The notes under the pieces were generated by a model. That model worked only from the letters and a program-made list of their open reading frames with translations, was not told where the DNA came from and did not search any database. Shown here piece by piece: positions 60,019 through 63,557 of a stretch of 64,000 nucleotides of DNA (position 1 is the first letter of the stretch; each line of letters opens with the position of its first letter). The DNA is taken from contig CP092079.1 of assembly GCA_022226955.1 (NCBI GenBank), positions 734,811 through 798,810 on the forward strand. The letters are read 5' to 3'. The position numbers and the translations under genes are program-made. Source of the stretch: Nitrospira sp. Lineage in GTDB: Bacteria > Nitrospirota > Nitrospiria > Nitrospirales > Nitrospiraceae.

Positions 60019-61485
60019 CTACAACTCTAATCCAGACCTGCCTACGTCCCGGTTGGCCGTTTCGACCGAAACCGGGGAGTCGTCCGAAGGGATATCGCGA
60101 ATCTGAATCGAGTCGACGCGCTGTTGGGCGAGGACGTCCGAGATAATGACGACCTTGTCTCCGACTTGGAAGGCTTCACGGTCTTTGAGGATGCGGAATG
60201 CCGTTTGAAGAGTCTTCTCAGGGTCTGAACTGAAATCGATTTTGAAGGGAAAGACTCCGCGATTGAGCATCATGGTCCGTCGCGGCTGGCTCATGTTGGT
60301 AAAGGCGTAGATGTTGGTGGCGAACGGGCGGCAGTTGGCGACGAGGTCGGCCATAATCCCGCGTCTGGTGATCACGACAATGCCTTTGGCCTTGACGCCT
60401 TCGGCGAGCCGCACGGCCGCCGCCGCCAGTTGTTGCTTGTTCTCCTCGTTGCGCAGATTTTTCGCAAACTGCAAGCCGGGAATCGTTTCAGATTTTCTCG
60501 CAATCCTGCGAATGAACTCGACGCACTTCACCGGATACTTGCCCACCGTGGTTTCCCCGGACAGCATGACGGCATCGGCCTCTTCGTAGATCGCATTGGC
60601 GACATCGGTGACCTCGGCCCTGGTGGGGTAGGGGTTGTGGATCATGGATTCGAGCAGGTGGGTCGCCACGATGACACGTTTGCCATACTCGGCGCACAGT
60701 CGCACGATGGTGCGTTGCACGTTCGGCAGGTCCTCCAGGTTAATTTCCACCCCGAGATCTCCGCGCGCGACCATGATGCCGTCCGATTCCTGGACGATAG
60801 ATTCGAGATTCCTGACCCCTTCCTGATCCTCGATCTTGGCGATGATCTTCACCCGCCCGGCCTTGTCGCCCATGAGCCCTTTGAGTTGCCGGATATCCTC
60901 GGCTTCGCGCACGAACGAGAGGGCGATAAAGTCCACATCCAGTTCCAGCCCGAACAGAATATCCTTCACATCCTTGTGCGTAATCGAGGGAAGATTGACG
61001 CGGACACCGGGAAGGTTCACGTGGCGTTTGCTTTTCAGCAGCCCGCCATCCAAGACGCGGCATCGCATGTGGCGCTCATGTTTTTCCAGCACCTCGAAAT
61101 TGATCAATCCATTGTCCACGGTGATCCGGTCTCCGACGTTGACGGTTTCCAGCAAGTCCGCATAGTTGATGTGGATCGAGCTTTCCTCAACGCTCTGCGC
61201 CCCGCGCGTGGTCACGGAGACGATGTCGCCCTGCCGCAGATTGAGCTCGTTGGAGAGATCTCCGGTGCGGATTTCCGGGCCTTGCGTATCGAGGAGGATG
61301 GGAATGGGAAACTTCACTTTTCGATTGAGCGACTTGATGTGCCGGATGACTTTGGCGTGAGACTCGTGATCGCCGTGGGACATGTTCAGCCGGGCGATGC
61401 TCATGCCGGCCTCGTAAAGCTTCTGCAGCATCTCGTAGGATTCCGTGACGGGGCCGATGGTGCAGATGATGCGAGTCTTGTGCAT
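60019..61485 (-). CDS. pyk: Pyruvate kinase
   Basis: A 488-residue pyruvate kinase converting PEP and ADP to pyruvate and ATP. Key motifs: TRIICTIGP at the start, ARLNMSHGDHE, LLDTQGPEIRTG, IIAKIEDQEGVRNLESIVQESDGIMVARGDLGVEI with the catalytic Lys and metal ligands, and MLSGETTVGKYPVKCV. A C-terminal allosteric domain follows. The ATG at 61485 has AGGGAG upstream; the frame is open to 61740 but the extension is not protein-like. It is divergent from the bestrophin-carbonic anhydrase operon across about 300 bases. Confidence 0.95.
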   Translation of the reverse strand: MHKTRIICTIGPVTESYEMLQKLYEAGMSIARLNMSHGDHESHAKVIRHIKSLNRKVKFPIPILLDTQGPEIRTGDLSNELNLRQGDIVSVTTRGAQSVEESSIHINYADLLETVNVGDRITVDNGLINFEVLEKHERHMRCRVLDGGLLKSKRHVNLPGVRVNLPSITHKDVKDILFGLELDVDFIALSFVREAEDIRQLKGLMGDKAGRVKIIAKIEDQEGVRNLESIVQESDGIMVARGDLGVEINLEDLPNVQRTIVRLCAEYGKRVIVATHLLESMIHNPYPTRAEVTDVANAIYEEADAVMLSGETTVGKYPVKCVEFIRRIARKSETIPGLQFAKNLRNEENKQQLAAAAVRLAEGVKAKGIVVITRRGIMADLVANCRPFATNIYAFTNMSQPRRTMMLNRGVFPFKIDFSSDPEKTLQTAFRILKDREAFQVGDKVVIISDVLAQQRVDSIQIRDIPSDDSPVSVETANRDVGRSGLEL

Positions 61486-61788: not shown

Positions 61789-62802
61789 ATGTACACAGGC
61801 ACACATTATCCACTGCCGCAGACCTTGTGCTGGACGCGCCGCCAAATTTATTGGCTCTTCGGGATCGCACTCGTTCCAACACTGCTATACGTCACCACCG
61901 ACTGGAAGGGACTGGGGATTCCTTGGGTTCCCATTGGCCTGATCGGGACTGCCGCGGCATTCATCGCCGGCTTCCGCAACAATGCCACCTACGATCGCGT
62001 GTGGGAAGCGCGAACGATCTACGGGTCCATCGTCAACAACAGCCGGACCTGGGGACTTATGGTGCGCGACCTTATTCACCCGAAGGCTGGCGGTCTGGAT
62101 GGCGATGCCAAAACGGCTCACACGAGGCTGATCTACCGCCATGTCGCCTGGTTGACGGCCTTGCGATACCAACTGCGGCAGCCGCGCGCGTGGGAGTCGA
62201 CCCAGTGGGGAGCCAATCTTGAGTTTCGTAATCGATACTACAAGGTGGAAGAACATGCCGGAGACATTGAGACCGCTCTCGCGAACTGGATTTCGGCCGA
62301 TGAGCTGGCGCGTCTGCGGAACGTCAGCAACCAGGCCGCGCATCTGTTGGTGTTGCAAGGTGAAGACCTCCGCCGGCTTCGGGACCACGGGGCATTCGAA
62401 GCCAATGCGCACGTGGCGCTTGAGCAGGTGCTCGCGTCGCTGTTGAACAATCAAGGCGCCTGCGAGCGCATTAAAAACTTTCCCTATCCGAGGCAGTTCG
62501 CCACGCTCAGTCTGACCTTTGTGCGATTATTTGTGTACGCGTTGCCGTTTGGGCTTATCGGCGAGTTTGCTAAAGTGGGCACGCATGCGGTGTGGCTGAC
62601 AATTCCCTTTTGCATTCTTGTCGGCTGGATCTTCAGCATCTTGGAAGCCATCGGAGAGGTGTCGGAAAATCCCTTTGAAGGAAGCGCCAACGACGTGCCG
62701 ATCACGGCCCTCAGCCGCACCATTGAAATCGACCTCCGCCAAATGCTTGGCGAACGGGATTTGCCGGCCCCGCTGACGCCGGTCAATAATATCCTGATGT
62801 GA
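61789..62802 (+). CDS. Bestrophin-like anion channel
   Basis: A 337-residue member of the bestrophin/UPF0187 family. The N-terminal region (YPLPQTLCWTRRQIYWLF) is followed by helices, FRNNATYDRVWEARTIYGSIVNNSRTWGLMVRD, which is the family signature and lines the pore, YRHVAWLTALRYQLR, and a C-terminal EAIGEVSENPFEGSANDVPITALSRTIEIDLRQMLG. Bestrophins conduct chloride and, in several cases, bicarbonate. Its stop overlaps the start of the next gene, a carbonic anhydrase, which points to bicarbonate as the physiological ion here. The start at 61789 lacks a clear ribosome site. Confidence 0.92.
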   Translation: MYTGTHYPLPQTLCWTRRQIYWLFGIALVPTLLYVTTDWKGLGIPWVPIGLIGTAAAFIAGFRNNATYDRVWEARTIYGSIVNNSRTWGLMVRDLIHPKAGGLDGDAKTAHTRLIYRHVAWLTALRYQLRQPRAWESTQWGANLEFRNRYYKVEEHAGDIETALANWISADELARLRNVSNQAAHLLVLQGEDLRRLRDHGAFEANAHVALEQVLASLLNNQGACERIKNFPYPRQFATLSLTFVRLFVYALPFGLIGEFAKVGTHAVWLTIPFCILVGWIFSILEAIGEVSENPFEGSANDVPITALSRTIEIDLRQMLGERDLPAPLTPVNNILM

Positions 62803-63557
62803 TCATTATGAATGAAGCCGCTACGCATCTTCGCGTCATTCGCCAGCATTACCCCGATGCCCATAGCACCACCGACGCGGTCGATCGCTACCTCGACCTC
62901 TTCCAGCGTCGGTTGGGGCTGCGTCCCTCCGATATTTTGCTTGCGGACAGTATCTGCGCCGACGACATCAATTGCATCGAGTATCCGCAGCGAGCCAGCC
63001 AGATGCCTGGTCCGTTCAAGCTTGGCGGGCTCGACGGATTTCCATTTGCAGGACTGACCGGGATGGGGGCATTCGCTGGGCATGTGCCAGACCGTGGAGC
63101 CGTGTTCATTTATCATGGGCCGCACATCGGGATCACCAAGGCAGGTGTCCTCGGCCAGATCCTGCGCGTTGGGCAGTCGGCGCCCAGCGGCTGCTGCGGG
63201 GCTTGCCGGGCTGCATTGGCCAAACTGCAGGCTGGGACGATCAACCCCGGCGAAGTCGAGGAACTGGACTATCAACAGCAGACTCTTGAGCAGATCGTGC
63301 TCAAGAATGCCGCGCGCATCGTCACCGCACCTCATCCGCTGAAGGAAGCGACCGAGGTGATCGGAGAGGCCATTACCGCGCGCATCGATCTGCTTGTCTC
63401 GCGCACGACCTACAAGGCCAGATACGTTATTTTAGCGGGAGCGATTCTGATCAACGGCGATCATGACATGGGTTCTTTCACGACGCCCAGGCGGCTGATT
63501 GTGAAAGATTTGCAGTCCGGCACGACCGAAGATCTGCTCGCTGCCTACCAGGCCTAA
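62799..63557 (+). CDS. LCIB/C-type beta-carbonic anhydrase-like protein
   Basis: A 252-residue protein similar to the LCIB family of beta-type carbonic anhydrases first known from algae. ADSICADDIN carries a zinc Cys (C53) and Asp (D55), GPHIGI the zinc His (H109), and SGCCGACRAAL the third zinc ligand (C132 or C133); GFPFAGLTGMGAFAGHVPD is another hallmark. These enzymes interconvert CO2 and bicarbonate. The GTG at 62799 overlaps the bestrophin stop (GTGA), so the proteins are co-translated; ATG 62808 is an alternative start. Assignment is by motif recall and should be checked. Confidence 0.85.
   Translation: MIIMNEAATHLRVIRQHYPDAHSTTDAVDRYLDLFQRRLGLRPSDILLADSICADDINCIEYPQRASQMPGPFKLGGLDGFPFAGLTGMGAFAGHVPDRGAVFIYHGPHIGITKAGVLGQILRVGQSAPSGCCGACRAALAKLQAGTINPGEVEELDYQQQTLEQIVLKNAARIVTAPHPLKEATEVIGEAITARIDLLVSRTTYKARYVILAGAILINGDHDMGSFTTPRRLIVKDLQSGTTEDLLAAYQA

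Follow-up and report, generated by a model that had tools for sequence, protein, structure and literature searches.

The window, a 64,000-nucleotide stretch of Nitrospira sp. contig CP092079.1, encodes on its forward strand a Bestrophin_2 channel of 337 amino acids (61789..62802), followed by an LCIB-family carbonic anhydrase (CA) of 249 amino acids (62808..63557). Both open reading frames lie where an earlier note on this DNA had placed them. That note also had the two genes overlap at GTGA; the overlap exists (GTG at 62799, TGA at 62800-62802), but an in-frame ATG that follows the bestrophin stop by five bases, at 62808, is the more likely start of the LCIB protein. We favor this ATG because one just past the bestrophin stop recurs in a sister Nitrospira (L036) and in L037, L039, and L042; L045 apparently starts via the GTGA overlap. 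Same-strand spacing in the nearest clade runs from −4 to +5 nt, so the genes are tightly packed under either start, and their translational coupling is plausible. No RNA family, promoter, or terminator sought at the pair scored above chance. In base composition the pair differs little from the window mean, which gives no added hint on its origin; a plasmid origin was rejected, as there was no plasmid match.

The second protein matches the LCIB_C_CA profile PF18599 over positions 3 to 221 of 223 (211 bits against a cut-off of 25, E = 1.7e−62), which bears out the family assignment proposed from the sequence alone. Counted from ATG 62808, the landmark residues previously listed as C53, D55, H109, and C132/133 become C50, D52, H106, and C129-C130. 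C50-A51-D52 (62955..62963) supplies a cysteine zinc ligand, the CRDE/CSD position, and a catalytic-type aspartate; H106 (63123..63125) is the second ligand, and C130 of the C129-C130 doublet (63192..63197) is the third. In an alignment of the window protein with relatives from the best 80 of 96 loci, C50, D52, H106, and C130 are invariant (81/81), as expected for a β-CA-like zinc site. The spacing of C50, H106, and C130 is that of the zinc ligands C46, H102, and C126 of the diatom protein PtLCIB4 (PMC6352938).

An AlphaFold2 model of the protein (pLDDT 86, pTM 0.86) recovers the LCIB fold. Its best Foldseek matches are all LCIB-family structures (PtLCIB4, 5b5y, TM 0.78-0.82; 6kfs, TM 0.84), followed by CrLCIB/LCIC (TM 0.63-0.68) and, weakly, by canonical β-CAs. 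Because residues 51-55 and 74-80 are modeled with low confidence, we assigned the zinc ligands by alignment and did not read active-site geometry from the model. PtLCIB4 and 6kfs thus share with the window protein a fold (TM 0.78-0.84), a C-56-H-24-C ligand spacing, and a first cysteine without a following arginine, but they are only ~27-30% identical to it; moreover, PtLCIB4 is a diatom protein without an operon, whereas its bacterial counterparts are partnered by a channel gene. Constitutive activity is described for PtLCIB3 and PtLCIB4 (PMC9614477), while CrLCIB, LCIC, and the CrLCIB-LCIC complex showed no CA activity (PMC8825250). The Chlamydomonas proteins carry R beside the first zinc cysteine, where PtLCIB4 has S; at the corresponding position 51, the 81 aligned proteins (best 80 of 96 loci plus the window) have S, C, or A, and none has R. 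Since the ligands are invariant and this arginine is absent, the window protein resembles the active LCIB type; our understanding of the S47R mutant in this argument is inferred from sequence and reviews. In one other genome, an LCIB-family match (G285:C1:1294641-1295279) is interrupted by one TGA; this genome has another copy that is intact.

The first protein is likewise what had been proposed, a bestrophin channel. It matches PF25539 (160 bits, E = 8.5e−47) and the Klebsiella channel KpBest (phmmer E = 2.5e−25), and its AlphaFold2 model (pLDDT 89) superimposes on KpBest with a TM of 0.86-0.91 by target length. In an alignment of 52 bestrophins, the pore-neck residues T54-F58-F62 (61948..61974) correspond to I62-I66-F70 of KpBest and I76-F80-F84 of eukaryotic bestrophins; F58 and F62 occur in all 51 readable rows. 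Two of the three neck positions are therefore Phe as in eukaryotic bestrophins, and the first is Thr instead of Ile. KpBest, whose neck is IIF, conducts Na+, and its I66F mutant favors Cl−; the anion-selective eukaryotic bestrophins have an IFF neck (PMC8496536). Because F58 sits at the position of KpBest I66, anion selectivity of the window channel is suggested, a reading taken weakly from one residue. Although family and fold are shared, the window channel differs from KpBest in its TFF neck and in a long C-terminal tail ending P-V-N-N-I-L-M (62740..62799). The tail pattern P-x-x-N-N-I-x-[LM] is common throughout the long bestrophin clade to which this protein belongs, with or without LCIB, and is absent from short paralogues; it is a trait of that clade and not specific to LCIB. 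A role for PxxNNILM as an LCIB docking motif was rejected because long bestrophins of genomes lacking this LCIB also carry it. What bacterial bestrophins do for the cell is, to our knowledge, poorly defined.

Recurrence and gene neighborhood of the pair

We scanned a genome collection for LCIB relatives and kept the best 80 of 96 loci, chosen by similarity, from Bacteroidota, Gemmatimonadota, Acidobacteriota, and one other Nitrospira. With the window included, a bestrophin gene lies directly adjacent on the same strand at 54 of 81 loci from four phyla (48 upstream of LCIB, 6 downstream), about 4.9 kb away at 2, and nowhere nearby at 25. The adjacency predicted for relatives is thus conserved. 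Bestrophin and LCIB distances are also correlated (Mantel r = 0.43; 0 of 2,000 permutations as high). Most of the named carriers belong to heterotrophic genera (Flavobacterium, Pedobacter, Chryseobacterium, Runella, and Spirosoma).

Because these loci were selected by similarity, we drew an independent sample of 295 Bacteroidia genomes, spread evenly over the class of G351 and including two seed genomes. LCIB of this kind occurs in 14 of them and a long-clade bestrophin in 63: 13 of the 14 genomes with LCIB carry the bestrophin, against 50 of the 281 without (Fisher p = 8e−9; 1.5e−7 with the seed genomes removed; both overstate significance, as the genomes share descent). Six of nine close-type LCIB genes in this sample adjoin the bestrophin, with gaps of up to ~250 nt. 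The 50 genomes with a long bestrophin but without this LCIB type show that the channel does not require LCIB.

Two apparent bestrophin-LCIB fusions (frames of 582 and 361 amino acids in G384 and G614) were rejected; the extra length is read-through in another frame over a normal bestrophin. In Foetidibacter luteolus (L086:5752-5948), the bestrophin gene is disrupted by a stop and a frame change beside an intact LCIB gene.

Further transport genes occur beside these channels and enzymes. At 18 of 80 loci (best 80 of 96; L049, L055, L087, L101, and 14 more, one of them the L086 locus with its disrupted bestrophin), a gene for a 2TM-type K+ channel (PF07885, Ion_trans_2) lies directly upstream of the bestrophin, giving the order K+ channel-bestrophin-LCIB; none was found beside unpaired bestrophins. 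A Castor/Pollux-type channel adjoins L199. CPA1-type Na+/H+ exchangers adjoin six long bestrophins without a CA neighbor (L158, L160, L166, L172, L258, and L263), a Na+/H+ exchanger adjoins one unpaired LCIB, and aquaporins are neighbors at three loci. Such neighbors would fit a function in ion and pH balance.

The other genes around the pair in the window seem to stand apart from it. Downstream are an HxlR-type regulator on the opposite strand, a pirin-like protein, and an old yellow enzyme, named from inspection of their sequences, which we take to be not obviously related. Upstream, on the reverse strand, lies a pyruvate kinase gene (60019..61485) that is indeed divergent from the pair, as the earlier note had pointed out (ATG at ~61485), but is not a conserved neighbor. 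Copies 86-100% identical occur in 7 of 59 congeners searched, with different neighbors, and a second pyruvate kinase, ~40% identical, is encoded elsewhere in the genome; we therefore rejected this accessory copy as a functional partner and place it outside the system.

The pair in Nitrospira and its relation to algal LCIB

Within Nitrospira the pair is rare, occurring in 2 of 79 genomes: that of the window and G322, which has the same pyruvate kinase and old-yellow-enzyme flanks and a bestrophin split across a contig break. In a tree, the window LCIB branches with proteins from an Acidobacteriota metagenome-assembled genome and Gemmatimonadota, far from other Nitrospirota LCIBs, and for this reason the lineage is likely to have gained the pair horizontally. 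A canonical β-CA (Pro_CA) was sought in the window genome and not found. Pro_CA is encoded in 51-53 of 79 congeners, many times in frames of ~750 amino acids; its absence from both pair-bearing genomes is only suggestive, given that about a third of congeners also lack it. DabA is present in the window genome and the CA search left out the α and γ classes, and we do not claim LCIB as the cell's only CA.

Nitrospirota more often carry an LCIB of the CRDE type than one of the window's CAD/CSD type. The window protein falls outside the CRDE subgroup: it has A51, R is found at this position in none of the 81 aligned proteins (best 80 of 96 loci plus the window), and it lies on a separate branch. 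Within the 1.5 kb examined, no bestrophin was found beside CRDE-type Nitrospirota LCIBs. These genes instead adjoin ion transporters of the SLC13/CitMHS kind at 19 of 28 Nitrospirota loci (among them L010-L017, L020-L024, L027, L030, L034, and L035), usually with an SLC13/Na_sulph_symp-type gene upstream and often with a second, CitMHS-type gene downstream. Such loci could represent a Na+-linked bicarbonate system.

Chlamydomonas LCIB and LCIC group with the CRDE type. An interaction of algal LCIB/LCIC with BST1 and BST3, two bestrophins, has been reported (PMC6708349), in line with the joint action described in the earlier note, and the bacterial pair is drawn from the two families whose algal members are both required for the CO2-concentrating mechanism (PMC6708349). 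Chlamydomonas LCIB, however, is of the CRDE type, has no measured activity alone, resides in the chloroplast, and belongs to a separate LCIB branch. Because the algal-like and the bestrophin-linked LCIBs are different branches, there is no support for reading the operon as a simple forerunner of the algal pair, one of the origins that had been suggested for it.

Other systems also join a CA to a membrane protein. The ~750-amino-acid Pro_CA frames of other Nitrospira resemble the pair in apparently coupling a transporter-sized protein with a CA, but they are single fused proteins built on a canonical β-CA and contain no channel plus LCIB. We presume that they are SulP-CA fusions, the SulP half being assumed from size. 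DAB (DabA/DabB) and MpsAB likewise partner a CA-like protein with a membrane protein; in these, however, CO2 hydration is energy coupled and the membrane subunit is unrelated to bestrophin.

Exchange of the carbonic anhydrase partner

In nine genomes of the 295-genome sample, a canonical β-CA directly adjoins the same long bestrophin clade on the same strand (L199, L202, L205, L206, L207, L210, L251, L252, and L255). These proteins show the CSDSR...HxxC pattern, and Pfam confirmed Pro_CA (PF00484) for all three that were submitted. By a rough estimate from the few CA genes in a genome of ~4,000, chance would produce well under one such adjacency. On the bestrophin tree, four changes of the β-CA label are required even on starred branches, and at least eight of the LCIB label; L255 is nested within a clade mostly paired with LCIB. 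The genome with L210 (G417) also encodes an LCIB, on another contig. No CA neighbor was found at the loci of short bestrophin paralogues in LCIB genomes. This partner swap is the strongest evidence that the channel-CA link is functional and concerns CO2/bicarbonate. Among open-licence papers, we found no description of a bacterial bestrophin-CA operon with an interchangeable CA in heterotrophs.

The swap bears on two alternatives. In the first, LCIB would simply make HCO3− for biosynthetic carboxylations while the bestrophin conducts another anion or serves osmotic balance, the two genes sharing only their expression. A soluble CA could be needed where no canonical Pro_CA was found, and 25 of 81 relatives (best 80 of 96 loci plus the window) have LCIB without an adjacent bestrophin. 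We nevertheless regard mere coexpression as rather unlikely: the replacement of LCIB by β-CA beside one bestrophin clade, with at least four label changes, speaks for a specific link, and 13 of the 14 LCIB genomes in the Bacteroidia sample keep the bestrophin somewhere. In the second, LCIB would have lost CA activity and would gate or scaffold the bestrophin as a CO2/bicarbonate sensor, for which the CA fold of CrLCIB and LCIC, with no measured activity, offers a precedent (PMC8825250). The invariant zinc ligands, the absence of the arginine of the inactive algal proteins, and the presence of an ordinary β-CA in the LCIB slot of nine genomes make a dedicated sensor highly improbable. We consider it very probable that bestrophin and CA form a functional channel-CA pair.

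Direction of bicarbonate flow and meaning of the pair

In bacteria, the cytoplasm has a negative potential and is as a rule slightly alkaline. Where a CA equilibrates CO2 and HCO3−, the more alkaline compartment, normally the cytoplasm, has the higher HCO3− concentration, and at equilibrium a potential of about −120 mV would keep an anion about 100-fold less concentrated inside (our own calculation). The driving force on HCO3− would thus point outward, a direction that rests on general biophysics and could reverse in de-energized cells.

This matters for the possibility, raised in the earlier note, that the pair feeds carboxylations in an autotroph: the bestrophin would admit HCO3− and LCIB would interconvert it with CO2 for carboxylases of the reductive tricarboxylic acid cycle. 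The host genus Nitrospira, the canonical β-CA not found in the window genome, and the reported interaction of LCIB with bestrophins in an algal CO2-concentrating mechanism (PMC6708349) speak for it. Uptake is, however, quite unlikely. Most carriers are heterotrophs, and among 79 Nitrospira genomes the pair occurs in only 2. Import through a passive anion channel would have to run against the membrane potential, and such a channel should leak bicarbonate from an energized cell; DabA, encoded in the same genome, is a better candidate for uptake. The algal channels BST1-3 are themselves proposed to carry HCO3− from the alkaline stroma to the acid lumen, which is topologically export. Recurrent pairing, mostly in heterotrophs, instead points to a general bicarbonate/pH module and not to an algal-style CO2 concentrator. 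Handling of CO2/bicarbonate, the broader part of the original proposal, is upheld by the two protein families, the zinc site, the conserved adjacency, the co-occurrence, and the β-CA swap.

The reading we prefer, with a probability of about 0.5, is a CA-fed, gated bicarbonate exit channel that serves as an acid-loading, proton-motive-force, and osmotic relief valve. Soluble cytoplasmic LCIB would hydrate CO2 to HCO3− and H+ beside a pentameric bestrophin, through which HCO3−, and probably also Cl−, would cross the inner membrane passively, in the same topological direction as proposed for BST1-3. With the channel open, base would be exported and protons kept, and reentry of CO2 would make the cycle equal to proton entry. 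Such a valve could load acid, limit excess proton motive force, relieve osmotic stress, and dispose of respiratory CO2, and would be useful only if the channel is gated; in many Bacteroidota, the K+ channel may serve as the partner that balances charge. Our observations cover the families, zinc site, channel fold, recurring pairing, and substitution of LCIB by β-CA; from them we infer CA activity, the selectivity of the channel for anions, contact between the two proteins, gating, direction, and the role in physiology.

Both components are members of known families. Work to engineer CO2-concentrating mechanisms into crops relies centrally on algal LCIB and bestrophins. One bestrophin clade is repeatedly joined in operons with two different CA families, which makes a strong genomic case that it handles CO2/bicarbonate, and the small bacterial pairs offer a direct test of the bestrophin-CA partnership. 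More tentatively, the pair may belong to a widespread bacterial modular bicarbonate valve, composed of this bestrophin clade, an interchangeable CA, and often a K+ channel, in which CO2-dependent gated proton entry would set cytoplasmic pH and membrane potential. If so, the LCIB-bestrophin partnership of algae would put the same chemistry to a separate use.
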